Translations under genes and position numbers: made by a program
Notes under the pieces: generated by a model
The model's input: only the letters and a program-made list of their open reading frames with translations
Databases searched by the model: none
What the model was told of the DNA's origin: nothing
NCBI GenBank assembly: GCA_019752015.1
Contig: JAIEMQ010000016.1
Coordinates: 1 to 64,000 of the forward strand
From: Cyanobacteriota bacterium
GTDB taxonomy: Bacteria > Acidobacteriota > Vicinamibacteria > Vicinamibacterales > UBA2999
Direction: 5' to 3'
Length of the DNA stretch: 64,000 nt
Part shown: in pieces, positions 1 through 15,010 of the stretch
Numbering within the stretch: the first letter of the stretch is position 1
How the letters are laid out: each line of letters begins with the position of its first letter

Positions 1-38
1 CACTCTGCTATGAGGTACGGGCATTTCGAGCGTTTCGT

Positions 39-446
39 TTACACGCCGAGCCGCAAACGCGCTTGTACTGGGACTAGTGGCACGAACAGCCTGGCGACAA
101 GACCATACAGCCAACCGAGAAGGCGCTCGAGAAGACCGGGGTGTCGATACAGACAGAGGCCACCGTTGACGGCCCAGATATCGCAGTCGTCTCCCTTTCG
201 CAGTCCGCGGTTTGAGCGAAGCGTGTTGGTCTGCGCCCATGCCACCGTTGTCATCGGCGCGTCCTGTCTCGCCCGGCCCGCGGCAGCCAGCAGCGCCTGC
301 CAATCCGGAAGACGAGTCTTCAGGAGCATTTCGATAGGCGTCGGCGATGGCCCGATGTCCGTGGATTCCTCACGACTACGGGTCGCGGCTCTCAAGCCGG
401 AACCGGTGCGCTCGAGAACGGACTCCGGACTGTCGCCGACTGCCAT
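39..446 (-). CDS. Small hypothetical protein, last gene of the CHAT/caspase operon
   Basis: A 135-residue protein that I do not recognise. The start is well supported: an AGGAGG Shine-Dalgarno sequence (452-457, minus strand) lies 5 nt before the ATG. The N-terminal half is polar; the C-terminus (about residues 100-130) is a leucine/valine-rich hydrophobic stretch that could be a membrane segment, followed by a short arginine-containing tail. It lies 108 bp downstream of the caspase-like gene on the same strand, so it is probably the last member of that operon. No catalytic motif is visible. A membrane-active partner or substrate of the neighbouring proteases is possible, but this is only a guess from context. 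Confidence 0.55.
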   Translation of the reverse strand: MAVGDSPESVLERTGSGLRAATRSREESTDIGPSPTPIEMLLKTRLPDWQALLAAAGRARQDAPMTTVAWAQTNTLRSNRGLRKGDDCDIWAVNGGLCLYRHPGLLERLLGWLYGLVARLFVPLVPVQARLRLGV

Positions 447-554
447 GCGGTCCTCCTGAAGCGATGGAAGCGCTCACAGTAACATGGCGTCCGCTTGCGA
501 GTCGTTACACTTACGGTTCAGGGGTTCATTCGAGAATGAGGATCGGATTCGAAA

Positions 555-2639
555 TCACCGGGGTTCAGCAATATCCCCGTTACCCTGGATCAGTAGCCAG
601 ATCTGGCTGAAAACCGCACGCGAAAACAGCTCCAACGCGAGCGAAGGAACAGCAAGCGAGTCTCCTTCAGCCGAGACCTGAGACTGCAAACCGGCGAGCA
701 TGACTGGCACGCGAGGTCGCGCGACAGGGTCTACGAACGATCGCCCGAGCATCCGCTCGGTAGCCGCGAAGAGAATGTAACCGTCGTCCAGATCTGGCGC
801 GTTCGTCCGAAGCAGACCTGCATATTTCCCCGCCTGGCTCGCATCCTGATTGCCCAAAGCAGCGTAGCCGGCTAACGCCAGAGCCAGAGGCTCGTCATCA
901 AGTCCGTCGAGGAGAGAGACTACATGGGTGCGCCCCTCGGTCTTGAAGAAGCGTTGTGCCCAGATGATCCGTTTCTGCGAGGCGTGATGACGGCGACGTA
1001 GCGGGTTTGGGGCCAGCAACAATTCGATCGAGGGATGTCTGTAGCCGGTGCGATCGATGCCAACGATCGTCATTCTCCCCGCCAGCAATGGCAGCAGCAG
1101 CTGGCACGGCTGCCCGTCGTCAGCTACAAGTCGTAGCTGCGCTACTCCTGGCCTCCCAACGTAGCTGCCATGCACCAACTCCGCAATACCGCTAGGCGGC
1201 GTGGCTGACTGAAGTTCCCTTGGGTCCACCGCTTCGACGGTTGGTTGGATCCCTTCGGCCAGCACTAGGAGCCCTGCCTGGCCAGGGTTCAGGTCCATTC
1301 GAAGACTCTCCCCGCGGTCAAGGCTGTCCAGCAGGCGATCGAGTGGATTCTGCGGCCGGTCAAATGACATCGGAACGACCAGCTCTGTCTGGTCTGCCCG
1401 CAATTCGAATTCCCGCTCGAAATTGCCTTCCGGTGTGGCCATCACGGCTCGGTAGCGATCCGGCGGTACTTGGAGACGGTAGCCACCCCGACTCCTGGCC
1501 GGAAGGTCGACCGGTTGACCACCGCCGTTATACAGGTGGACAGGCAAATGCGGGTCGCAAGGCTCGATCGACAGTTCGACAAGCGCAGCGTCACGACCGC
1601 TGAGCGTGCCCTCGCCGGGTCGTTGCAACCAAAGCTGCACGATGTGGGGTGACGGCCGCACACGGCTATAGCCATAGTGCTCAACGTACCCAGGCGCATG
1701 CGCAACGATCCTATAGAGCTCGTCCTGGAGCAGATCGAAGCGGAATGGGGGTCCGGTGCGCGTCGCCACTGTTGTGAGAGGGCTGTCGCGGTAGATCTCG
1801 ACCGTCGATGAGTGCGCCGCAGCGGGCGGTCTGACATCGACGCGCAACTCTCCCTGGCCGGCAGGACCGAGCCGCGCCACAATCGGATTGCTCGGAATTT
1901 GTCCGCCGGCCACGCACCGCTGGCGGTGATTGGTACGTTTTGGCACCTCGCGCTCCAAGTAGGCGCGCAACGCCTCGAAGTGCACGACACGCTCGCCGGC
2001 GTCGTAGTCGACGGTCGCGTCGGCGGCACCTTCCAGCCCCTCGAGCAACACCTGAGTGAACACGCCTGCATCGTTCATCTCGAAGGCGCGCTTTCCGTAA
2101 CCGGTCGCGTACAGCACATACTGCGCGACATCGGCCGGTGCGGCCCTCGATCGATCGAATGGCAGCCGGGCACTGACTATCTTTTCGAACAGTTGCTCGT
2201 CTTCGTGACGACACGTGTCGAGAAAACAAAGCTGCGTTCGGAAGCCAGTGGTCCCCAGCCATAACTCCAGTTTGGGCCAGGGGATCGCGCTTTCCCCGTA
2301 AGCTCCGGCCCTCGTATCCTGGGGCAACAGCAGCAGTTGATTGTCGAAATAGCCGATGCCGTGACCAGCGTAGAACAGGTAAAGGCGGTCGTCTGGTCCA
2401 GCCTGACGGCCCGCCACCTCCAGTTGCAACAGGGCATCGCCGATCTCTGCTCGAGTCGCTGGGCGCTCACCCCGCTCTGGGATGTGAGGAGCGCAGAGCA
2501 GCGAGACGTGTTGAGCCCAACCCTGTTGGCTTAGCCAGGCCGCTATGCGGCGCGCGTCCTTCGCGGCGCTCTCGAGCCGCTCCTGACCGCTGGCGGGCGG
2601 GTAATCATCGATTCCAATGATCAACGCGCGGCTGGGCAC
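555..2639 (-). CDS. Caspase-family (peptidase C14) protein with C-terminal extension
   Basis: A predicted cysteine peptidase of the caspase/metacaspase clan, about 694 residues. The N-terminal p20-like domain begins ALIIGIDDYP, contains YAGHG (catalytic His) and LDTCR (catalytic Cys), and runs to about residue 230. The rest, some 460 residues, has beta-rich segments and no family I recognise; it may be a sensor or adaptor part. The reading frame is open further upstream, but the GTG at 2639 is the likely start: it lies 15 bp after the stop of the upstream CHAT gene, has a GAGAACAGG-like ribosome-binding site, and puts the caspase beta-strand right at the N-terminus. No signal peptide is visible, so it is probably cytoplasmic. 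Metacaspases usually cut after Arg/Lys; specificity here is unknown. Confidence 0.85.
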   Translation of the reverse strand: MPSRALIIGIDDYPPASGQERLESAAKDARRIAAWLSQQGWAQHVSLLCAPHIPERGERPATRAEIGDALLQLEVAGRQAGPDDRLYLFYAGHGIGYFDNQLLLLPQDTRAGAYGESAIPWPKLELWLGTTGFRTQLCFLDTCRHEDEQLFEKIVSARLPFDRSRAAPADVAQYVLYATGYGKRAFEMNDAGVFTQVLLEGLEGAADATVDYDAGERVVHFEALRAYLEREVPKRTNHRQRCVAGGQIPSNPIVARLGPAGQGELRVDVRPPAAAHSSTVEIYRDSPLTTVATRTGPPFRFDLLQDELYRIVAHAPGYVEHYGYSRVRPSPHIVQLWLQRPGEGTLSGRDAALVELSIEPCDPHLPVHLYNGGGQPVDLPARSRGGYRLQVPPDRYRAVMATPEGNFEREFELRADQTELVVPMSFDRPQNPLDRLLDSLDRGESLRMDLNPGQAGLLVLAEGIQPTVEAVDPRELQSATPPSGIAELVHGSYVGRPGVAQLRLVADDGQPCQLLLPLLAGRMTIVGIDRTGYRHPSIELLLAPNPLRRRHHASQKRIIWAQRFFKTEGRTHVVSLLDGLDDEPLALALAGYAALGNQDASQAGKYAGLLRTNAPDLDDGYILFAATERMLGRSFVDPVARPRVPVMLAGLQSQVSAEGDSLAVPSLALELFSRAVFSQIWLLIQGNGDIAEPR

Positions 2640-2653
2640 AGAGAGCCTGTTCT

Positions 2654-4486
2654 CTACTGAAACTGCACTGGTCGACCTGCCGCGAGCCGGTGCAATACAT
2701 AGCCGAGCGCGGTCAGAATGAGACCGGCGTACAGATTGCCCCGAGGCGGAGTGACCGACGCGGGCGCCAACCACAACAGCGCCACCGGCCCGCACAGCAT
2801 GATATAGCCGGCCGCGATAACCATCGTGTCAGCCCAGTCCCATACAGGCGCCGCGACGCGGGCGTCGGAAATAAGCGCGACGCCGTGACCGACCGCCACC
2901 TGCCAGCTCAGTAGGCCGGCCGGCACAAACAATGTTGCGAGCAGCAAGATCTGGGCGGCCGGCACCAGCGTGCCCCAGAAATTGAACGCCACGAGTAGCA
3001 GCAGCAGCTGCCAGGCATAGCACGCCGGCAGCGCTATCCCCATCGCGGCGGCGCCGAGCATTCGAAGCAGCAGCGCGGCTCGAGCTGACGGGGACCAACC
3101 TGGCCCCGCGGGTATTGATACATGTCCAAACAGGCGTGCGGCAACGGCCATCAGTGGCGGCAACGCCGCCATCGCGGCAATCACCCAGACAACCTGCTCC
3201 GCCGCAGGCGCCGCAGGCGAAGCTCCGCTCAGAACCAGCAGCATCGCGACCAGCAAATGGACACCTCCAAATCCCAGGCTGATCCTGCTAAGCTGCCGCT
3301 GGCCTTCTGGCTGGCGCATCCAGTGCTCGATGCGACTACCAGCCCGAGCGATCGGTTGTTCCTGCGGGGTGCCAAGGCTGGTGTACAGCGTCGGCAAGCT
3401 CCAATCGATCTCCCCGTGCATCTCCGCAGCGATCTTTAGTCGCGTATGGGCCAGCGCCTCCTCGATAGTGGCTCCCAGTTGTACCGCGCCATAGAACGTC
3501 CGCGCGAAAATGACGGCGGCATCCTGCTGAATCTCGTCCTGCATCGCAACAACGTACGGAACGCCGCCGTAAACCAGCTGCATCGCGATGGAGCTCGTCG
3601 CTGTGACACTGGCTCCGTGGCATGAGTTCAGGACGACGAGTTGAACACTCTGAGTGGTGTTGAGGAGGTGCAGGAGGCGTTCGCCGGCTACTGCCTGGGC
3701 CCTGCCGTCCTCATCGGCAAACACCAAGTAACTGTGATGGCGGGAGTCCATCGCGATTTCGCCGTGGCCGAGAAAATGGACAACCTGATGATCTCGTGCT
3801 GTCAAGGTCTCCTGCAGCCGTTGAACTGAGCCGGGTTGGGCCACAAGAGTATAGAAGTCATCCTGCCCAGCGGCCTGACGAATGGCGTCACGCTCTGCCT
3901 GCCAGATCGCGGGCGGGATCTTGACGTACTGCTTGGGTTGGGCCACCACGTGAGCGATACGAAACGGCGCCGACACGAAGAGGGATCCCTGCCGCACCGT
4001 ATCCAGCAAGCGGCGCGTGATGCTCACCCGCTGCATGAGACCGAGGTGCATTTTCAGCTGCTTGAGATAGGCAATTTCCCAAGGCATACTCAGCAGCTGG
4101 TCGGCGTGATCGCCCGCTTTGGCCTCGAACACCAGCCGGACGTTGCGCTCCCTGTCGAACACGTGCTGGAGCAGGCGGGGCAAGGCCTCCCGCAGCGCGT
4201 CGGGCAACAGTTCGTAGAGCTGAACCCCTAGATCCCGGACGGCTGCCGTTGTCGCGGGATCTGCGTCGTCCGGCGCGCGATCGTCACCGCGGCCGGCCAT
4301 CAGGCGATTGGCGTAGAGTTGCCGAAATGCTTCGAGCCGCTTCTCGATATCGGCCTGGAATAGACCGCCTCGCAGCAGGATCGGAGAGTCACGAACCTCA
4401 GCCTGGTAGATGACCTGATCCGGATGGTGGCTTTGCCGCGAAAAACGGACCACCACGTTTTCGATCGGCGCCTGAGGGTGTCTCAC
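2654..4486 (-). CDS. CHAT-domain protease with C-terminal membrane segments
   Basis: A 610-residue protein. Residues about 120-380 form a CHAT domain (caspase-like peptidase fold): VVHFLGHGE carries the expected catalytic His and VVLNSCHGAS the Cys. The C-terminal 200 residues hold several hydrophobic helices, so the protease is tethered to the membrane with the CHAT domain probably in the cytoplasm. Translation starts at a GTG that overlaps the stop of the upstream membrane-protein gene by 4 bp (GTGA), indicating translational coupling. The caspase-like gene follows 14 bp after its stop. Two peptidases of the same clan back to back in one operon suggest a proteolytic cascade or a protease-receptor pair; substrate unknown. 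Confidence 0.85.
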   Translation of the reverse strand: MRHPQAPIENVVVRFSRQSHHPDQVIYQAEVRDSPILLRGGLFQADIEKRLEAFRQLYANRLMAGRGDDRAPDDADPATTAAVRDLGVQLYELLPDALREALPRLLQHVFDRERNVRLVFEAKAGDHADQLLSMPWEIAYLKQLKMHLGLMQRVSITRRLLDTVRQGSLFVSAPFRIAHVVAQPKQYVKIPPAIWQAERDAIRQAAGQDDFYTLVAQPGSVQRLQETLTARDHQVVHFLGHGEIAMDSRHHSYLVFADEDGRAQAVAGERLLHLLNTTQSVQLVVLNSCHGASVTATSSIAMQLVYGGVPYVVAMQDEIQQDAAVIFARTFYGAVQLGATIEEALAHTRLKIAAEMHGEIDWSLPTLYTSLGTPQEQPIARAGSRIEHWMRQPEGQRQLSRISLGFGGVHLLVAMLLVLSGASPAAPAAEQVVWVIAAMAALPPLMAVAARLFGHVSIPAGPGWSPSARAALLLRMLGAAAMGIALPACYAWQLLLLLVAFNFWGTLVPAAQILLLATLFVPAGLLSWQVAVGHGVALISDARVAAPVWDWADTMVIAAGYIMLCGPVALLWLAPASVTPPRGNLYAGLILTALGYVLHRLAAGRPVQFQ

Positions 4487-5805
4487 TGCGTTAGTTCTGT
4501 CTCGCTCCCGGCCATCCGAAGGGCGCCGAGCAACCGCGCGTGCGCCGCAATGCGCGCCAGCAGCACATCGGGCCAGTTTGCCTCTGAACCGCTCTCCGGT
4601 GTCCGGCCTATCGTTCCATAGAGGGCAACGATCGTGTGTTGTAGACCGGTTACGGCATGCGTGATCGTCGGACTGTAGGAAGAATCTAGCAACGCATCCC
4701 TGGCGTCAGACAGGGTCTGAGCGAGTTCCGGAGCCAGACCGGTCTCGGCCAATGTGGCGATCCCCGAATGGTCGGTCAGCGCCGCCAGCCAACGCTGGAG
4801 GTCGGGAGGGATCACGGCCTCCTCTGCGAGCCTGGCGTAGGTCGAAGCGATAGGCCGCATCTGCTCGGGAAATGCTGGCGATAAGTAGCGAATGGCGCCG
4901 GCTCCCCCCGGCTGCAGGCTCAGGCTCAGGGTCAGGCGCTGGGTCTGATCCAGTGTCAGGCGCGAGCTGGCGCTACGCACGATCGGCCCGAGGCTACCGT
5001 CGCGCAGTAGGGCCATGAGGGCGACGCTCGATCGTGCAGCGCACTGCTCGTTGGTCATCAGTGACAGGAGCGATGTGATTGGCGCAGAAAGTGCCCAGCG
5101 TCCGGCGTAGGTCGCCCGAGCGCTCTGGTCCTCGAACACCACTAGCGGACGTCTCACCCAGCACATGACAGCTGCTTCGAACCGCAGGCAAGCCAGCCCG
5201 CCGACCAGCAACGCCACCGCGATCACCACGCCAAGCCCGATCGGCCGTACGAGTGTTAGGCCAGCGATGGCGAGCAAAGCGCAGCTTGATGCGGCTGTCA
5301 GTCGGACCATGCGCGCCCGGTTCTGCCATCGCAGCACCGGCAAATCGGACAAGGGGCCGGGGGAGCGCTGGCGGGAATGCTCGCGTGTGATCGTCCTTGC
5401 CCTGTTGAAAACCCACACGGCGCAGGCAGAAGAAAGCAGCATCCCAATCAGCAGCGGAGCTCCGATCAGCCAGCTGAGGGCCCTGGCGGCCGGCAACACG
5501 ACCCCGATGCCCGATAACACTCCGACAAGCGTTGCAGGTGGTGCGCAGAGGTACAGGAACCACAGCCGCGCGTGGCCAGTCGCCCCCACCGCGATGCCGA
5601 CGAAGAACATCAACGGCGAAATGGGCACCAACGCGTGACTGACCAGAATGACCAAGGAATGGCCCCAGACTGTGGCGACCACGCCCAGGCCCGCCAAAGC
5701 CGCCAGCGCTGTCAATCCGCTGAGCAACCACGCGCGACGCCAGACTTGCCGGTTGGACGGTGCATCAGTGACTAGCCGGTGTGGAGCACAATACAGCCAA
5801 ATCAT
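4483..5805 (-). CDS. Multi-pass membrane protein heading the CHAT/caspase operon
   Basis: A 440-residue protein not assigned to a family. The first 220 residues contain about six to eight hydrophobic segments (for example near residues 28-50, 55-80, 85-135 and 170-205). The remaining half is soluble, alpha-helical in character, and has no motif I recognise. It is the first gene of the operon and overlaps the CHAT gene by 4 bp (GTGA). Together with the membrane-tethered CHAT protease downstream it may form a membrane sensor or scaffold. The 150 bp between it and the divergent MlaD-like gene must hold both promoters. Confidence 0.7.
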   Translation of the reverse strand: MIWLYCAPHRLVTDAPSNRQVWRRAWLLSGLTALAALAGLGVVATVWGHSLVILVSHALVPISPLMFFVGIAVGATGHARLWFLYLCAPPATLVGVLSGIGVVLPAARALSWLIGAPLLIGMLLSSACAVWVFNRARTITREHSRQRSPGPLSDLPVLRWQNRARMVRLTAASSCALLAIAGLTLVRPIGLGVVIAVALLVGGLACLRFEAAVMCWVRRPLVVFEDQSARATYAGRWALSAPITSLLSLMTNEQCAARSSVALMALLRDGSLGPIVRSASSRLTLDQTQRLTLSLSLQPGGAGAIRYLSPAFPEQMRPIASTYARLAEEAVIPPDLQRWLAALTDHSGIATLAETGLAPELAQTLSDARDALLDSSYSPTITHAVTGLQHTIVALYGTIGRTPESGSEANWPDVLLARIAAHARLLGALRMAGSETELTQ

Positions 5806-6418: not shown

Positions 6419-7216
6419 TCACTGACGCCGGGCAACACGGAACGATTGTGTCGCCACCGTCTCGCCGTCGGGGCTACCCGCGACGCGCAGAGTGAGCACA
6501 TAGTCGCCCGGCACCAGTAAAGGTGCATCCACGATCACGGTCGCGTCCGTCGCGCCGTTGGAACGCGTCATCACCGGAGGAGTGACCGGCAGTCGTGCGC
6601 CGCCATCTCGCGCCTGCAACTCGGCGGACAGCCCGGCTCCTTCCGGCACTGTCAGCCCTCTTACGGTCAGCTCGACTCGAGTGTGAGTCGATGCAACTTC
6701 CAACCGGTCAAAACTGGCGCGCGGCGCCCCGCGCTCACCCTGTGCCCCAAGTGTCGCTGTGAGTGTGGAGGCACCTGGCGACAGAATTCCGCTGTTTCGT
6801 TGCCAGAGAAACAATCCAGCTACCAACACGGCACTGGCAACAAAGGCATAGCGAGGCAACGATCCCGACGTCAGTATCCAGGCTCGCAGATGGGACAGAA
6901 AGCCGGGTGACTTGCGCGGTACTGCCCGCGAGGCCTCTGCAGCGCGCAGCACGTTCAATGCTTCCTCGACTCGAGCTCGTCGCGCAGGTGTTGCGTACGA
7001 GACTGCAAAGGACGCGCGTTGCTCCGGCGTCAGCCCGCCACGGTGCCAACGAAGAATCAGGTCGTCATCCAACGCGGCCATACGCTCGTAGTAATCCGGA
7101 TCTTCCGCGAGCCGGTCCAGAATCTGGTCGCGAGTCGTCGCGTCCAACCCCCCAAGCAGGTAATCCGTCATCACGCGTTCTTCGTTGGCGTCCGACACCG
7201 TGGCCTCTTCAGACAT
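6419..7216 (-). CDS. Membrane anti-sigma-like protein with C-terminal beta module
   Basis: A 265-residue protein. The N-terminal 100 residues are acidic and helical (for example MTDYLLGGLDATT and ALDDDLILRWHRGGLTPEQR), a layout typical of acidobacterial anti-sigma-like proteins that lack the zinc HxxxCxxC motif. A single TM helix follows at about residues 120-138. The outer part (about 150-265) looks like a beta-sandwich with a PGDYVLTLRV signature and has a close relative at 13032-13526. It sits 4 bp after the ECF sigma gene in the TPR-CHAT operon. Inferred role: it binds the sigma factor at the inner face of the membrane and senses envelope conditions through the outer module, possibly being a protease target. 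Confidence 0.7.
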   Translation of the reverse strand: MSEEATVSDANEERVMTDYLLGGLDATTRDQILDRLAEDPDYYERMAALDDDLILRWHRGGLTPEQRASFAVSYATPARRARVEEALNVLRAAEASRAVPRKSPGFLSHLRAWILTSGSLPRYAFVASAVLVAGLFLWQRNSGILSPGASTLTATLGAQGERGAPRASFDRLEVASTHTRVELTVRGLTVPEGAGLSAELQARDGGARLPVTPPVMTRSNGATDATVIVDAPLLVPGDYVLTLRVAGSPDGETVATQSFRVARRQ

Positions 7217-7220
7217 GCTC

Positions 7221-7871
7221 TTACAGGGCCTTGCGTTTCATGTGTCCGGTGGCTTTGCGGGGCCGGCGATTGCACTCAGGTAAAGCCTTCTCCTTCAGCT
7301 CCTCCCGAATGCGATGCACTCTTACCCGCAAATGCCCGACCGACATGTTCAATTCCGTCGCATGAGCTTCGTGATTGTCTTCTTCGCTATACCTGCACAG
7401 AGTCTCCCATTTCTCGGGAGTCAGCAATCGCTGCATCTCGCGCAGCATCAACCGTGCTTCAATTTGTGCCGTTTCGTCGTAACTAGACGACTTGGCTTGC
7501 CACGCAGTCTCGTCCAATTGCTGTGACCGTGGTACGTGCTTCCAGCCCTCCCGTAAGACGTTCTTCGCAAAGCCAAACACGTAGGCACGAAATCCGGAGG
7601 TACTGATGTCGGTGACCTTATCTAGCTTCTTCAGAGCACGGTGGAGAGCTTCCGCGGCGACCTCATCGGGATCCTGACAGCCATGCATTTCGAGGGATCG
7701 CGCGAGATGCTTCAGCAGCTTCTCGATCTTCTGATCAGCAACGACAGGATCAGGACCGATGAAGTCCATCAGGTCCGGTACAACGTCTCCGGTTCGAGTC
7801 ACCGGATCGGCCTGATCGTGCTCGTCCGCGCCCTCCGTAAGCGGCCTCCGCTTCTTCGGCGATAGGCTCAT
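7221..7871 (-). CDS. ECF-type RNA polymerase sigma factor
   Basis: A 216-residue sigma-70 family protein. Region 2 lies at about residues 40-115, including ISTSGFRAYVFGFAKNVLRE, the ECF pattern of a conserved core-binding helix. Region 4 lies at about 140-195, with MSVGHLRVRVHRIREELKE as the helix-turn-helix. The ATG overlaps the TPR-CHAT stop by 4 bp (ATGA), and the anti-sigma-like gene begins 4 bp after its stop, so the three genes are translationally coupled. Known ECF factors are held by a cognate membrane anti-sigma and released by proteolysis or conformational change; the coupled protease makes the proteolytic route attractive here, but this is inference. Confidence 0.85.
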   Translation of the reverse strand: MSLSPKKRRPLTEGADEHDQADPVTRTGDVVPDLMDFIGPDPVVADQKIEKLLKHLARSLEMHGCQDPDEVAAEALHRALKKLDKVTDISTSGFRAYVFGFAKNVLREGWKHVPRSQQLDETAWQAKSSSYDETAQIEARLMLREMQRLLTPEKWETLCRYSEEDNHEAHATELNMSVGHLRVRVHRIREELKEKALPECNRRPRKATGHMKRKAL

Positions 7872-10800
7872 CTCGGATCGCCGACAAACACGAACGCGCT
7901 CCAGTAGAATGGATCGTTGAAGCGCCGGTTGCGCAGCATGCTCAATTGCGCCTCACGGAGCGCCGCTGCGGGACGCCGCCGGCGAGGACCAAGCAGCTCG
8001 CCGTACATCGCCTTCATCAACTCCACGGTTGGCTCCTCATGCACATTGTTGAGCGAGCCGATCACAGACGCAGCGCCCGCGGCGAGGAAACCTCTGGCCA
8101 GGCCCATGACGCCCTCTCCAGGCAGATCCGGCCCGTCCACTGAACTGCACGCACTCAGGACGACGACATCCGCCTGCAGCGTGATGTCGGTGGTGATCTC
8201 GTTAAGCCGGACGCGGCCTCGCCGCCGACGACCCTCGGCATCGTACTGGGAGAGAATCACTGCCGACAACTCAGGCCTGAGACCGTCGGAAACCGCATGG
8301 GCCGCGAGATGCACGATTTGGTAACTACCAATCCGCTGCATCGCGTCACGATTTGCGGCGAAATCAAATGCGGCGAACCTCGGTTCAGACCTCGCATACG
8401 CCAATATCGAGTCCGCCTCGGTCCGCGCCAGCATCAGTCGTCCGCCCCTGAACTCGTCGCCGGCGAAATCGCCATCCGGCGATTCTGTTGGCAGCGGGCG
8501 TAGCGGCGTCAGACGCGGATCGTCTTCCTCGTAGACAGCATCCGCCACGACCGCGATCAAGCCGGGCGCCGCTGTGCGACCAGCGCGCTGCTTCAGTTCG
8601 ATTCCCGCCGACGCCGACGGCAGCATCGCTATCTCATGCTGAACGATCAGCGCCGTCTCGCGTCCAGGCTCGGGCATTGCGGCAAAAGGCACGAGCTGCA
8701 GCAGGCCGTCGCAAATCAGCAGCAGACGATGCTGGCGCAGGTCAGCCCTGAACTGGCCGAGCAGCATTTCGCTCAATGCACCGGCCTCGCGCTGCATCTC
8801 TGCCCGCAACTGTAGCGCCGTTGTGGGCGTACGTGCGGTGCGCATCAACTCCACGATCCTCGCGCTTAACCGATCGATCTCGTCTCTTGGCGGCAGGGTA
8901 ACTGCGGTAATCGACCCTGGTGCCACGAACCAGGCGTAGCTCTGACTTTCACCGAGCGCAATCCGCAGCAGGCGCGTCGTCGGATCCAGGAGGTGGCGCT
9001 GGATCTCCCGCAACGAAAAGATGGGCGGGCTTGCCGGTGTTGGGCCGACGCCTGCCCCACGAATCCGGCTGTCAAGCGTGCGATACGCGGTCAGGTGCAC
9101 GTTCATCTGCTCGAACGCTGCCTTCGCGTCGACCGCAGAGCCCGGCTGATTGGAGAGACGCGCAAGCCGGCTCGCCCAAAAGTCCAGTCGCCGCTGGTGC
9201 TCACGTTGCTGTTCTCGAAGCTCTGGATCCACGCCTCGGCGCGCGTCCGTACCGGACTCGCGCAAGAGGTCGATCAGCGACCGGGCCCGTTCGCGCTCCG
9301 CCATCTCGAAGGCCGCGATCGCGTAACCGTTAGCGGGCCTGACGGCATGCAGCCGCATCAAGACATCGATCATCGCGGCGAAGTACTTCTGGCGATTCGC
9401 AAAGTACAACGTGCGCGAGTACTCGCCGGATACTCGGCCACGAACATGTTCAATGAGCGTGATGGCGGCATCGAGATGCCGGCGCGCCACGGGAAGCGCG
9501 CCCGCATCGCGCTCGAGCACACCGAGTTCGTAACTGGTCTCTGCCTCGGGGTCGGTCAGTCCGATCTCGCGGCGCATGGCCAGCGCCTCGGTCAGCACAG
9601 CGCGCGCGGCATCGACGCGGCCAAGATGCCGGTTGGCCACTCCAATGTGATGCAGGGCGGTGGCAACACCTCGACGCACCTCAGCACGGCGATAGATCGC
9701 GAGGGCTTGCTCATGGTTGGCCAACGCCGCGGCGAAGCGACCAATGGCTGTCTCGACTTGACCGAGCAGGTCGAGCGCCTCGGCTTCGAAGAGGCGATCG
9801 GGAGTGGACGCGCCCCGAATCGCCGCGAGCGCGTCGTGCACGCCGGCGCCGGCAACATCGACGTGGCCTCGGCCAAGCGCGATCTGCGCCAGCCGCAATC
9901 CCAATCTGGCGATTCGCGGATCGTTCGGGGGCAGCGCGGCGCGCGCGCGCACGAAGTACTGTTCGGCGGCGTCAAGATCGCCGACCGCGCGATACGCAAC
10001 GCCGAGCAGATTCAGGAGCGGCGGTCCAAGCCGAGGATGCCGCTCCAGTACCGGGGCCGCCAGCAGCAGGCGTTCGAGTGCGGCGTAGTAGTCGCCGCTC
10101 TCCACCAGCATCGCGGCCTCGTTGGACAGCGTCGCAGCCCGATCGATCTCGACGCCAGGCAATGACGACCACAGCTCGAGCGCCTTCTTATAGTGCTTGC
10201 CGGCTTCGTCAAGCACACCGCGGTTGTATAACGTGGCGCCGAGATTGTTCTCTAGAAGGGCCACCTGATATGTCTGCCCCGATGATCGAAACAACTCCAA
10301 GGCGCTGGCGTATGCGGCCTCAGCCTCCTTGGGCTTGTTGGTGACTCGGAGCATGTCACCAGTCCGTGCCAGCGTCGTCGCGATACCACGAGTGTCGTTT
10401 ACCTCACGCCAGATAGACAGCGCAGAACGCAAAGCGACCAGTGCCTCAGCGGGCACGGGACGGTCCCCGGTCGCCAATCGCTTGCCATCGCTTTCAAGCC
10501 GCTCGGCCTCGGCGGAATGTTGATCGGCTGGGGTTACGGGATGCGGCTCGCCGTCGATCGAAATTTTGTACTGAATCCGCGCGGAGAGTGGCCCTTTAGG
10601 GGCGATCGCGATCTGGAACGTGTCATCGCTTTCGGCAATAAGCGTCGCCGACTCGACGCCACGCTCCCGCATGTCGAGGTTATAGACGGCACCGCCAGGC
10701 GGCGTGATCGCCAGGACCAGATCGGTCTGAAACTGCTCCACCAAGACACGAACCGCCGTGCCCCGATGCAGTGCAACCTCGAACCGTCCGCGACGGTCGG

Positions 10801-10951
10801 CCGACAACTCGGCCTCCACCGGGGCGCCCGGTACAAGCATCGCCTCGCCACAGGCCATCGAGGTAATGGTGATCAAACCGGCGCCGAGCAGGCCCCAGTT
10901 CCGTCCACTCAACTGGCCAGCGCTTCGGCTCACCGGCGCCCGCGACAACAA
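7868..10951 (-). CDS. TPR-CHAT protease, exported or lipid-anchored
   Basis: About 1,027 residues. It begins with a basic/hydrophobic leader ending TSMACGE (possible lipobox Cys), then a beta domain, then tetratricopeptide repeats over about residues 200-540, then a CHAT peptidase domain in the last 350 residues. Catalytic His is in VHLAAHAV and Cys in VVLSACSS. The open frame continues to a GTG at 10990, but a TTG at 10951 is better: a perfect AGGAGG at 10961-10966 stands 9 nt before it. TPR-CHAT proteins include separase-like proteases and Csx29 of Craspase. It is the first gene of an operon with the ECF sigma and anti-sigma-like genes. If exported, its CHAT domain would face the outer module of the anti-sigma protein. 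Confidence 0.85.
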   Translation of the reverse strand: MLSRAPVSRSAGQLSGRNWGLLGAGLITITSMACGEAMLVPGAPVEAELSADRRGRFEVALHRGTAVRVLVEQFQTDLVLAITPPGGAVYNLDMRERGVESATLIAESDDTFQIAIAPKGPLSARIQYKISIDGEPHPVTPADQHSAEAERLESDGKRLATGDRPVPAEALVALRSALSIWREVNDTRGIATTLARTGDMLRVTNKPKEAEAAYASALELFRSSGQTYQVALLENNLGATLYNRGVLDEAGKHYKKALELWSSLPGVEIDRAATLSNEAAMLVESGDYYAALERLLLAAPVLERHPRLGPPLLNLLGVAYRAVGDLDAAEQYFVRARAALPPNDPRIARLGLRLAQIALGRGHVDVAGAGVHDALAAIRGASTPDRLFEAEALDLLGQVETAIGRFAAALANHEQALAIYRRAEVRRGVATALHHIGVANRHLGRVDAARAVLTEALAMRREIGLTDPEAETSYELGVLERDAGALPVARRHLDAAITLIEHVRGRVSGEYSRTLYFANRQKYFAAMIDVLMRLHAVRPANGYAIAAFEMAERERARSLIDLLRESGTDARRGVDPELREQQREHQRRLDFWASRLARLSNQPGSAVDAKAAFEQMNVHLTAYRTLDSRIRGAGVGPTPASPPIFSLREIQRHLLDPTTRLLRIALGESQSYAWFVAPGSITAVTLPPRDEIDRLSARIVELMRTARTPTTALQLRAEMQREAGALSEMLLGQFRADLRQHRLLLICDGLLQLVPFAAMPEPGRETALIVQHEIAMLPSASAGIELKQRAGRTAAPGLIAVVADAVYEEDDPRLTPLRPLPTESPDGDFAGDEFRGGRLMLARTEADSILAYARSEPRFAAFDFAANRDAMQRIGSYQIVHLAAHAVSDGLRPELSAVILSQYDAEGRRRRGRVRLNEITTDITLQADVVVLSACSSVDGPDLPGEGVMGLARGFLAAGAASVIGSLNNVHEEPTVELMKAMYGELLGPRRRRPAAALREAQLSMLRNRRFNDPFYWSAFVFVGDPR

Positions 10952-11048
10952 CCCCGCCCACCTCCTCAGACTCCGCCACCGGAGCCACACGAAGTATCCC
11001 CTCGGGTTGCAGGGAGATCAACCGCGGTGACATGAAACCAAAAGTCGC

Positions 11049-11387: not shown

Positions 11388-12122
11388 TTAGGAAATCGAC
11401 AGGCTGATGCTGTCTATCGGGAGTGAACAGCTCTCGACCGGCAGCGCTTCATCGTCGAAGCGTGCCGAGAGATTGCCGGTCTCGGCAGTGGCCACAATCA
11501 AGGCTTCGAAGACGACGGGCGCCACCGTCGGCAACGCGATCGTGCACAAGAGCCGCCGCCCCTGACACGCCACGTCCTTCGTTGTGACTTCGAACTGGAA
11601 TCGCCGGTCAGCGGTGATCACAGGGGGAGAGGACACCTGAAAGCTGACTGTCGTGCCTGATGGATCGCCGGTCGGCGTCAACAGGTCTGCGGCCAACGCG
11701 CGCACTGCCGCTCCGCGGGCACGAAGCGCGCCGCCTTCCGGATTCACGAGAGCGGCAAAGCCGGCCCGAATTTCGTTCAGACGAGACTCCACCCATTCGG
11801 CGGCGTTGCTGTCGGACATCCCCTCCATGACCCTGCGCCACGCCCCCTCGGGCTCTCGAGCACGCAAGTAGGTCTCGTAGATCGCAGGCGATGGAATGCT
11901 CGGCGGCGTAAGCAGCGGTAACTCACCCGTTTCGACTTGCTGCATCAGCATGTCGGCCAACACGTCGCTGCAGTCATCACACGTAAGCAGATGCGCTTCA
12001 ACCGCGCCGCGAGCGGATGGGCCCAGTCGCCGCGCCGCAAAATCCGCGAGCGACCTGCGGACTTCAACGCAGCGGGGTGGCACGTGCGGATTCTCGGAGC
12101 TCAAGAACGTCCTCATATTCAT
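11388..12122 (-). CDS. Zinc-finger (zf-HC2) anti-sigma-like protein
   Basis: A 244-residue protein. Residues about 43-53 read AHLLTCDDCSD, the HxxxCxxC zinc-binding signature of zf-HC2/ZAS anti-sigma domains. No convincing transmembrane helix follows; instead the C-terminal half (about 130-244) is beta-strand rich and may be a sensory domain. The start codon lies just 1 nt after the stop of the sigma-like gene upstream, an operon arrangement typical of sigma/anti-sigma pairs. ZAS proteins bind their sigma factor between regions 2 and 4; a soluble, possibly redox- or ligand-sensing type is inferred here. Confidence 0.7.
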   Translation of the reverse strand: MNMRTFLSSENPHVPPRCVEVRRSLADFAARRLGPSARGAVEAHLLTCDDCSDVLADMLMQQVETGELPLLTPPSIPSPAIYETYLRAREPEGAWRRVMEGMSDSNAAEWVESRLNEIRAGFAALVNPEGGALRARGAAVRALAADLLTPTGDPSGTTVSFQVSSPPVITADRRFQFEVTTKDVACQGRRLLCTIALPTVAPVVFEALIVATAETGNLSARFDDEALPVESCSLPIDSISLSIS

Positions 12123-12123
12123 C

Positions 12124-12927
12124 CTATACCGGGGCCAACCCGCCGTCCGGACCGAAAGCCCTGCGCCATAACTTCCTGAACTCCTGCAGCCGCACGTCGA
12201 GGGTCCCCCGCGAGATCTTGAGCCGTGCCATCGTGAACTTGTTCATTTCCTCGGACGATGCCTCGACAGCGTGACGATCCAGCAGGGGCACGAGTTCATC
12301 GAGCGAGAGTGACTCCGCATTTGCCACGCCAACGACGGCACGCACGCAACACTCGCGAAGGTACGCCTCTCTAGCGTCGAAGACGGCCTCCAGCGCCGGC
12401 CTCCCTCTGCACACTTCCTTGCATCCCCCCAACCTCTCGACCATGGCCTCGATGGCCGCGCGCGTGTGAGCCACTTCGATCAGGTGCTCCTCATCAGCTG
12501 GAACGGGCGGCAGGACCACATCCAGCTCCTGCGCAGTGACGCCCGCAGTCCGACGAGTCGGAGCGGTCACACGGAGTTCGGCACGACGACGATCGAGGCA
12601 GCGCCTCTTGAGGTACTGCCCAAACAAACCAGCAAACTGTGATTCGCCGCGCCAGGAAAACCCCTCGGCGGCGATCCTCGCTTCGAGGTTCGACAGCGCT
12701 GCGTCCGAGGCCTCGGCTGCCCATGCTTCTGCGGTCAGATCGTCTGGCGCCATGGTCCGGCAGAACGGGACTGCCCACGAACAGTTCAAGTTCCACAACC
12801 GCGTCCACGCTTCGTCACGAGCGGCGGGATCTCCGGACCTCCAGGCGTCGAACAACTGCTCGTCGACCGTGGCGAGAACCGGCGACACCAACGGTTCTGT
12901 CGTGTCTTCGTGGTCGCGTTCCGTCAT
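12124..12927 (-). CDS. Divergent sigma-70-like protein
   Basis: About 267 residues from the ATG at 12927 (the frame extends to an ATG at 12969; the inner ATG has a GGGTGG-like site and begins with an ordinary charged N-terminus). The first 130 residues follow the sigma region 2 pattern: LFDAWRSGDPAARDEAWTRL, then FSWRGESQFAGLFGQYLK and RRCLDRRRAE. The C-terminal part ends in a helix-turn-helix-like segment (MARLKISRGTLDVRLQEFRK) that may replace region 4. The middle contains an unusual cysteine-rich stretch (GGCKEVCRG, LRECCVR). It is followed at once by the zinc-finger anti-sigma-like gene. Similarity to standard ECF factors is weak, so the assignment rests on pattern plus neighbour. Confidence 0.6.
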   Translation of the reverse strand: MTERDHEDTTEPLVSPVLATVDEQLFDAWRSGDPAARDEAWTRLWNLNCSWAVPFCRTMAPDDLTAEAWAAEASDAALSNLEARIAAEGFSWRGESQFAGLFGQYLKRRCLDRRRAELRVTAPTRRTAGVTAQELDVVLPPVPADEEHLIEVAHTRAAIEAMVERLGGCKEVCRGRPALEAVFDAREAYLRECCVRAVVGVANAESLSLDELVPLLDRHAVEASSEEMNKFTMARLKISRGTLDVRLQEFRKLWRRAFGPDGGLAPV

Positions 12928-13031
12928 AGATGGAAACCACCCTGGTCCCGCCTTGCCCTCGACCCGCATGGCGGCACACGTCGCGGCGTTACAGGTCAGA
13001 TAGTAGCGAGGGAGCCGATCGTCCGATACCG

Positions 13032-13526
13032 TTATCGCAACGGAATCCGGCTGACGCGGAAGGCGCTCGTGACCACCACTTGTGACGACGCGCCTGCCAC
13101 CAGGCGCAATCGCAAGACGTAGTCACCATCCGCCGGTGCGGGCATCGTTACACTCACCATCGCGCCGCGCGAGGACGGGTCGACTGTCGGGCTGGGGAGT
13201 GGGATCGCGCCACCGCCGTCGACAGATTGCAGCTCGGCATCGAATCGCTCGCCGGGTCCGGGCTTCGACGTCATCAGAGACAACTGCACCTCCGTGGTCT
13301 GCGCCGGAACGCGGATCCGATCAAAGCCGTTGGACGAACGTGGTCCTCTCTCTCCGGCGGCGGACAGGTTGTAGGCGAGGACCACTCGTCCTTGGGCAGT
13401 CGGTTGCGATGCGGCGCGATCGGAGGGTCGCGTCCCGCTCCCGACGCGAGTAGCGACCCACGCGGCCACGAGCAACGTCAGTGCTACGAGCGACAGCGCC
13501 CTAACGCGTCTCTGGTCGTCGCCCAT
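13032..13526 (-). CDS. Single-pass membrane protein with anti-sigma-type outer module
   Basis: About 164 residues from the ATG at 13526. The N-terminus is basic, then one TM helix (about 10-28), then an extracytoplasmic beta module. That module matches the outer part of the anti-sigma protein at 6419-7216: compare ERGPRSSNGFDRIRVPAQTT, ELQSVDGGGAIPLPSPT and DGDYVLRLRLVAG with the corresponding blocks there. The N-terminal sigma-binding half is missing. The frame stays open to an ATG at 13715, but that extension has no hydrophobic or family features. It may be a stand-alone sensor or decoy for the same ligand or protease. It points away from the divergent NE0113-like gene. Confidence 0.6.
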   Translation of the reverse strand: MGDDQRRVRALSLVALTLLVAAWVATRVGSGTRPSDRAASQPTAQGRVVLAYNLSAAGERGPRSSNGFDRIRVPAQTTEVQLSLMTSKPGPGERFDAELQSVDGGGAIPLPSPTVDPSSRGAMVSVTMPAPADGDYVLRLRLVAGASSQVVVTSAFRVSRIPLR

Positions 13527-13801
13527 CAGCGCAATCCGGCAGACACCATCTCTTGGAAATGGCCGTTCGGCCGCGATCGTTACCGCCGTGCGTTGCGCTT
13601 TGTCATAGATCGCTGGAACGCTTGAACGGATCTCCATCGAGGACAGTGCCAAACCTTGGCGATTCACCGGGCGCGCGCTGTAACGACGCGGTCGAAACCA
13701 ACCATGTGTAGGCACATGCGAACGACCGCCCGCTCTGGATTTCCTCGACGAGGGTTTCCCGTGTCCTCGCCATCAATCCGTTGAATGTCGTGAAGTAAGC
13801 G

Positions 13802-15010
13802 ATGTTGTTGCCAGCATTGAGCGCAACCTTGATTCAATCGACTGGCGATCCTCGAGAAGGTATTCACTCAGGGTCACTGGCTGCAGCGCCCGCCGGCAAC
13901 TCCGATGCCGGCACTCTGCCGTCCAGCCTCACTACGTCTGTGCGCCATGTCTTGCTTCTCGTCGTTGGGTCCTCGGTCGCATCACTTGACGACGCCATCA
14001 CGGCGTTCGTAGGGGCCCGCCATGGCATCGATGATCTTTATGTTGTCGTGAGCGCGGATGCTGAAGAGGCTGCTCGGGACGTGATGTGCGCCTGGCTCAA
14101 GAAGTCCAGCGCCTTTGCGCGGATGTGTCGGACCGCCGGCATCGATCGTCACCGCCTGTTGCTGGGAACTCGAGCGCTCCGCGTCGTCGATGTGAAGCTC
14201 ACAGGCGGAATCGACTGGGACCTGGCCAATGGGTTGCTCGACATCGTCCGAGAGATTTGCACAGCGCGGACCGACCTGACGATCATCGTCCCTCAGCACG
14301 CTGGCGCGATGGCGGTCGCCGCACATGCCGCCTTACAGATTGGCGGACGTCCGCGTGACCGTTTCTATCTGCTAGCGGAGCCGTCGGCGTCGGAGCCGGC
14401 AACAACGGCGCGACTGCGACCGTCTTCGAAGCCACAGCCACGAACTACATCGCGGTTGATGGAGTTCCCGGTCGTACTCGAGGAGCGACCGTCAGCGGTC
14501 TCTTACCAGGAACTCGCCGTCGAGCGCCAGCGGGCAAGGCGGCGGTTGGCGGACCCGAGCCCCATGATCATCAGTCCACGTCGACGGACCATCACCATCG
14601 ACGGTACCGCGATCCGCCTGCCTCGTCTCGCCTTCTATTGGGTATGGGCCACGGCACGCTGCGCACCACGAGTGCTGCCCACTCGCGCGTTGTACGGCAA
14701 CTTCGACGTGGATCGCAGTGGCCGGCTGACAATCACGGCCGACGCAGACGCGCGGCCGCGGGCCGAGGCGGCGGTGCGGCAGTTGGAGCAACTCTTCGTG
14801 ACATTGTTCCCGACATCCGCTGACGAGTTCGCGCTGCTGCTCAAACGCGCATGCGGCGCCTCACCAGGATTGCCTGGCACGATGTCGCGCATCAACGCTG
14901 CGCTGAAGCGGGAACTGGGCATCGCAGCAGATCCGTACACGATCGTCAGTGAGCGAGGGAGCGATGGCTATCGGTTCAAGGTGCCCATCCGCATTCGCTT
15001 CGAATCGTGA
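13802..15010 (+). CDS. CRISPR-associated NE0113 (Csx/ring-nuclease-like) family protein
   Basis: A 402-residue protein. After an unstructured N-terminus, residues about 46-195 follow the Rossmann-like plan of the NE0113 family (TIGR02584 / Cas_NE0113): HVLLLVVGSS opening strand, DDLYVVVSADAEEAARDVM, an ICTARTDLTIIVPQHAGAMA strand-loop, then LQIGGRPRDRFYLLAE. The second half has the family's winged-helix-like part (ITIDGTAIRLPRLAFYWVWA). The usual ligand loop (SxAGGRKTM in family members I recall) is replaced by VPQHAGAMA, so cyclic-oligonucleotide binding may be lost or altered. No CRISPR repeats or cas genes occur in the window. It is divergent from the sigma/anti-sigma cluster. Assignment is from remembered family pattern, not a search. 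Confidence 0.6.
   Translation: MLLPALSATLIQSTGDPREGIHSGSLAAAPAGNSDAGTLPSSLTTSVRHVLLLVVGSSVASLDDAITAFVGARHGIDDLYVVVSADAEEAARDVMCAWLKKSSAFARMCRTAGIDRHRLLLGTRALRVVDVKLTGGIDWDLANGLLDIVREICTARTDLTIIVPQHAGAMAVAAHAALQIGGRPRDRFYLLAEPSASEPATTARLRPSSKPQPRTTSRLMEFPVVLEERPSAVSYQELAVERQRARRRLADPSPMIISPRRRTITIDGTAIRLPRLAFYWVWATARCAPRVLPTRALYGNFDVDRSGRLTITADADARPRAEAAVRQLEQLFVTLFPTSADEFALLLKRACGASPGLPGTMSRINAALKRELGIAADPYTIVSERGSDGYRFKVPIRIRFES

Follow-up and report, generated by a model that had tools for sequence, protein, structure and literature searches.

The DdvA/DdvS system of Myxococcus xanthus, which reportedly controls a CBASS–CRISPR island, pairs an extracytoplasmic function (ECF) sigma factor with a transmembrane anti-sigma factor that carries tetratricopeptide repeats (TPR) and a CHAT domain in the same polypeptide. 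The structural study of DdvA is said to have described a CHAT domain with an incomplete His–Cys site, its authors reportedly considering self-cleavage and subsequent processing by RseP. DdvS is active once DdvA is inactivated, and the signal is unknown (PMC4374960). In Craspase, a type III-E system made of Cas7-11, Csx29, Csx30 and CASP-sigma, Csx29 cuts Csx30 at a small flexible loop and lifts the inhibition of a sigma factor (PMC10028731); CHAT genes also lie near genes for ECF54 sigma factors, for which proteolytic control and no anti-sigma factor has been proposed (PMC8999054). Literature searches for CHAT proteins with an ECF sigma factor and an anti-sigma factor yielded only Craspase and the ECF54 remark. 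Here, we analyzed the first 64,000 nucleotides (hereafter the window) of contig JAIEMQ010000016.1, from an acidobacterial genome of the order Vicinamibacterales deposited as Cyanobacteriota bacterium (GCA_019752015.1), in which a TPR-CHAT protein, an ECF sigma factor and an anti-sigma factor are encoded side by side. We hold with good confidence that the CHAT protein is an upstream input to this sigma factor, and with moderate confidence that the three genes specify one transmembrane signaling unit, in which the CHAT protein cuts the anti-sigma factor to release the sigma factor.

The three genes follow one another on the minus strand, as do all features of the trio given below, with the junctions that the preliminary description of this DNA had reported. 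The TPR-CHAT gene (7,868–10,951) encodes 1,027 residues from a TTG start at 10,951, which lies about 9 bp downstream of an AGGAGG, and the longest frame offers an alternative GTG start at 10,990. Its stop codon overlaps the start codon of the ECF sigma gene (7,221–7,871; 216 residues) in a 4-bp ATGA read from the DNA (7,868–7,871), and a 4-bp gap separates the sigma stop codon from the gene of the single-pass anti-sigma factor (6,419–7,216; 265 residues). These overlaps support the translational coupling proposed in that description; the stoichiometric synthesis deduced there does not follow from them. As the gap between CHAT and sigma genes ranges from 7 to 232 bp among relatives with the same gene order, it is the operon that is conserved and not the coupling.

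The TPR-CHAT protein was recognized by its TPR part (Pfam TPR_12, E=8.8e-36) and its CHAT domain (PF12770, E=1.4e-52; 179 bits against a gathering cut-off of 24), and was modeled with AlphaFold2 at a mean pLDDT of 85.9 and a pTM of 0.84. The model folds as an N-terminal beta domain of eight strands (residues 45–138; 10,538–10,819), followed by a TPR superhelix with structural matches of the MalT/Rap/Csx29 type (residues 141–537; 9,341–10,531, delineated by TPR_12 and the model) and by the CHAT domain (residues 659–1,024; 7,880–8,977, delineated by Pfam and the model). The catalytic-type residues His885, within an HLAAHA motif (8,297–8,299, checked on the DNA), and Cys935, within LSAC (8,147–8,149), are invariant when the window protein is aligned with 20 relatives (A5), and the pair is intact in the encoded sequence. 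A loop directly after Cys935 (residues 937–946) is predicted to be disordered. A sequence search with the CHAT domain alone matched no solved structure, matches being obtained only with profiles and by fold comparison; the PDB matches of the CHAT model were led by DdvA, separase and Csx29.

The sigma factor matches TIGR02937 (E=2.1e-8) over positions 10–164 of 165, which covers ECF regions 2 and 4, with a score of 34 bits that falls under the curated cut-off of 42.9. A profile built without it retrieves it at 3.8e-18, and TIGR02937 also matches each of the 35 candidate sigma factors encoded next to a CHAT gene in the family (window included). Used as a query, it matched no relative in the genome contigs or in 42 family genomes because the sequence is too divergent, and the CHAT protein and profiles were used instead.

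The anti-sigma factor has no good match among curated families (best NCBIfam E=0.014), and a profile of eight distant Acidobacteriota anti-sigma factors, from which the window protein was excluded, retrieves it at about 1e-18 (Z=1e5). Its AlphaFold2 model (mean pLDDT of 85.4) comprises a cytoplasmic helical anti-sigma domain with a YLLG...LID-type motif common to relatives (residues 2–97; 6,926–7,213), a transmembrane helix with an arginine at its N-terminal side (residues 121–142; 6,791–6,856) and an outer Ig-like beta domain with generic Ig-fold matches (residues 150–264; 6,425–6,769). The sequence and the model support an arrangement in which the helical domain would hold the ECF sigma factor in the cytoplasm and the single helix would span the inner membrane and carry the Ig-like domain on its outer face. 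A loop of the outer domain that is predicted to be disordered (residues 161–167) contains Arg162 (6,731–6,733), the sole invariant residue across the aligned outer domains (25/25) and a candidate cleavage or contact residue.

We rejected the assignment of this domain as a chagasin-type cysteine-protease inhibitor (best Foldseek match, EhICP2), as VIA-align gives many unrelated Ig folds with equal or higher Z. Elsewhere in the window, a minus-strand gene (13,032–13,715) encodes a protein that repeats the outer domain (38% identity, 1e-16) and has a transmembrane helix but lacks an anti-sigma domain, possibly a truncated duplicate or a decoy. A zf-HC2 protein encoded at a 1-bp gap directly after a protein that is weakly sigma-like by eye and has no profile match (11,388–12,969, minus) may form, upstream of the trio, another pair of sigma and anti-sigma factors.

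The association of the three genes extends well beyond the window. We examined 48 CHAT genes from 43 genomes of the family, and 26 of them lie within 2 kb of a sigma gene on the same strand, for a chance level of about 1.4% estimated from sigma density (0.7 expected of 48; p of about 3e-35, relatedness ignored). Phylum-wide, a sigma gene was found within 2.5 kb at 22/42 sites and an anti-sigma gene of the window's family at 18. Searching in the reverse direction, from the anti-sigma family, located a CHAT gene within 4.5 kb of 24/38 stand-alone anti-sigma genes, 16 of these 24 being in the window order (CHAT, sigma, anti-sigma), as well as three more fusions in other genera; this test is not fully independent, since the seed anti-sigma factors were mostly drawn from CHAT loci. 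The nearest cyanobacterial CHAT genes have no sigma neighbor (0/33, versus 9/18 in Acidobacteriota). At least seven further TPR-CHAT genes are found in the window's own genome, most of them adjoining an ECF sigma gene, and loci L013, L014 and L015 of this genome each consist of sigma, anti-sigma and TPR-CHAT genes. Phylogenetically, the window CHAT falls within a 15-row clade (SH-aLRT 97) that also contains trios in the same order, among them L114, L116, L117, L124 and L130. The linkage on which the preliminary description had staked its proposal is conserved across Acidobacteriota.

In 12 loci (L016, L018, L019, L078, L081, L084, L087, L088, L090, L261, L262 and L273, the first three from the same genome as the window), the anti-sigma domain, a transmembrane helix and the TPR-CHAT part are joined in one protein. 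A profile of these fused proteins matches DdvA from the anti-sigma domain onward, up to and including the TPRs. The outer module of the L015 anti-sigma factor matches the N-terminal end of the CHAT protein encoded with it (38%, 4e-20) and is also common to the fused L016 protein (39%). The fusions and this shared module indicate that CHAT is part of the signaling device and not a target gene. Given that the trio recurs across Acidobacteriota and is sometimes fused, the CHAT protein is probably an outside sensor that releases the anti-sigma brake.

Many of the fused and related CHAT genes are followed by a gene for a protein of about 315 residues without Pfam match, a possible fourth partner (L018, 1,067–2,005; L019, 8,266–9,201; L016, 7,873–8,838; L082, 5,752–6,699; L084, 678–1,628). 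Some of these proteins have Tat-like MNRR starts, and a motif near F-GM--F was noted.

Several features bear on the side of the membrane at which CHAT resides. N-terminal hydrophobic segments or export signals are present in 38/45, 78/82 and 21/24 CHAT proteins of three wider sets, versus 37% among the remaining long frames. About 18 CHAT proteins, several of them encoded beside sigma and anti-sigma genes, end with a transmembrane helix and an Arg/Lys-rich tail, which places CHAT outside the cytoplasm according to the positive-inside rule; in the same-order trios L201, L206, L266, L268 and L269, such a helix with its Arg-rich tail would anchor CHAT beside the anti-sigma factor. Since the fused proteins have the anti-sigma domain before the transmembrane helix and TPR-CHAT after it, CHAT would share the outer side of the membrane with the outer domain of the anti-sigma factor. 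Taken from the sequences, the export signals, C-terminal anchors and fusions strongly indicate that TPR-CHAT is exported to the face that the anti-sigma outer domain occupies, in answer to the concern of the preliminary description that protease and target might be in different compartments.

The simplest mechanism suggested by these sequences would be a site-1 cut in the outer part of the anti-sigma factor followed by RseP. A signal would be bound by the TPR/beta part and would activate the His885/Cys935 site; activated CHAT would then cut the outer part of the anti-sigma factor, perhaps in the flexible loop with Arg162, RseP would complete the cleavage, and the freed sigma factor may also turn on its own operon. 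The His–Cys pair is retained in 199/201 unfused CHAT proteins, window included, and catalysis is therefore probably used in the split form. CHAT cleavage of the anti-sigma factor, as put forward in the preliminary description, is plausible. That description regarded it as distinct from the RseP/DegS route, which we could not support in that form: genes for RseP and for several HtrA proteases are present in the genome, and an outer cut of an anti-sigma factor would normally feed RseP. The CHAT route probably feeds RseP instead of replacing it, so that CHAT would take the place of DegS and not that of the pathway.

Four observations weigh against this model. The window CHAT's own export signal, predicted in residues 1–34 (10,850–10,951; disordered, pLDDT <50), is weak, with a hydrophobic stretch at about residues 21–35 (hydropathy of 1.67 over 15 residues) and a weak SMAC lipobox-like site, whereas the signals of its relatives are clearer. 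Arg162 also occurs in 10/14 anti-sigma factors without a nearby CHAT gene, and we therefore rejected it as a CHAT-specific mark. Close CHAT relatives without sigma neighbors adjoin a CHASE2-adenylate cyclase or Ser/Thr protein kinases (L126, 7,922–9,763; L110, 9,932–11,890; L131, 1,628–3,634; L115, 9,153–10,985); CHAT is therefore not specific to anti-sigma factors, and these neighborhoods suggest a general role as input modules for exported TPR-CHAT proteins. Finally, one clade of five fused CHAT proteins, including L087 and L090, is devoid of both catalytic residues, which implies that CHAT can act without catalysis and that catalysis is not needed everywhere. The contrast in catalytic loss between fused (5/9) and unfused (0/22) proteins (p=0.0007) was not retained as a statistic, given that the losses trace to a single event on the tree.

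This pseudo-CHAT clade supports an account in which CHAT is a non-catalytic sensor arm that binds both a ligand and the outer domain of the anti-sigma factor and shifts the grip on the sigma factor through conformation, any cutting being left to HtrA and RseP. The presence of these proteases in the genome agrees with it, and the outer module shared by the L015 anti-sigma and CHAT proteins suggests direct pairing, but the near-universal retention of the pair in unfused CHAT proteins speaks for selection on catalysis when the two proteins are split, and we regard a purely non-catalytic arm as rather unlikely. For cutting of the anti-sigma factor by CHAT, taken as a claim of its own, we see the chances as even.

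CHAT could also be the output of the system, as an envelope effector (a defense or death protease, for instance) whose expression is governed by its own ECF sigma factor while the anti-sigma factor senses the signal otherwise. A C14 caspase, a membrane CHAT protein and a weak CARF-like match encoded near the trio are compatible with such a role, as is the CBASS–CRISPR island that DdvA/DdvS reportedly controls in M. xanthus. This role is nonetheless improbable, as the twelve anti-sigma–TPR-CHAT fusions are difficult to reconcile with CHAT being simply a target. A cytoplasmic CHAT protein would instead target either the sigma factor directly, following the ECF54 proposal, where proteases including CHAT have been invoked (PMC8999054), or the cytoplasmic anti-sigma domain; this is very improbable in view of the export signals, the C-terminal helices with positive tails, the fusions with CHAT past the transmembrane helix and the presence in the window of an anti-sigma factor, unlike in the ECF54 case.

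The genes evoked above for an effector role belong to the surroundings of the trio. Three minus-strand genes at 555–5,805 possibly form a second operon and encode a C14 caspase-domain protein (555–2,795), a CHAT protein with five C-terminal transmembrane helices (2,654–4,486; its CHAT part matches PADLOC SAVED_CHAT at 4e-9) and a protein with multiple transmembrane segments and without family (4,483–5,805). On the plus strand, the product of 13,802–15,010 has a weak CARF-type match (PADLOC CARF5, 2.4e-4, residues 248–395) and is perhaps a defense sensor beside the trio. Frames with near-identical starts (MRYGHFE...) lie near CHAT genes where contigs C7 and C25 end (window 10–459 and L015 15–557), and perhaps correspond to a repeat that broke the assembly.

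Compared with the described systems, the window trio most closely resembles DdvA/DdvS, with which it shares an ECF sigma factor, a transmembrane anti-sigma factor and TPR-CHAT, and a Foldseek search with the window CHAT model ranks DdvA first (PDB 8rw5/8rot, E=2.6e-15). Anti-sigma and TPR-CHAT parts form one polypeptide in DdvA, as they do in L016, L078, L261 and others, and are encoded by two genes in the window; this mismatch lowers the case that the window trio is a DdvA and not the case that it works like DdvA. Unlike DdvA, the window anti-sigma factor has its own Ig-like outer domain, and the window CHAT has both His and Cys, whereas the site of DdvA is reportedly incomplete. Craspase, which is cytoplasmic, likewise associates TPR-CHAT with an inhibitor of an ECF-type sigma factor, and the window TPR-CHAT fold matches Csx29 chains with Z of about 23–26. 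However, Craspase is activated by RNA through Cas7-11 and Csx30 is not a transmembrane anti-sigma factor, unlike that of the window; no Cas7-11/gRAMP was found among the Pfam and PADLOC matches of the genes neighboring the trio. The ECF54 proposal involves no anti-sigma factor, whereas the window has one and its CHAT appears exported. The RseA/DegS/RseP system of sigma E shares with the window a single-pass anti-sigma factor, a periplasmic trigger and RseP, encoded in the window's genome, but its site-1 protein is a PDZ serine protease, whereas the window candidate is a clan CD cysteine-protease relative encoded in the operon. Separase, a structural match, combines a TPR-like arm with a CHAT/caspase-fold protease as the window protein does; it is eukaryotic, cleaves cohesin and has no sigma link, unlike the window protein. 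The idea is not new in kind, as DdvA and Craspase are close precedents and the fused form is already known, and by analogy the window trio may be regarded as in effect a split, dyad-intact relative of DdvA and a counterpart of Craspase outside the cytoplasm.

We tentatively extend this view to Acidobacteriota as a whole, where exported, catalytically intact TPR-CHAT proteins of the caspase/separase type might serve phylum-wide as dedicated site-1 proteases that cut membrane anti-sigma factors at the conserved Arg loop, with repeated DdvA-like fusion and loss of catalysis in one clade. The natural series of split and active, fused and active, and fused and inactive forms makes the need for catalysis directly testable. 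If true, DdvA and Craspase would both be instances of a broader scheme in which TPR-CHAT proteins control the inhibitors of sigma factors, and caspase/separase-type cysteine proteases would join the enzymes that trigger the release of ECF sigma factors from outside the cytoplasm.

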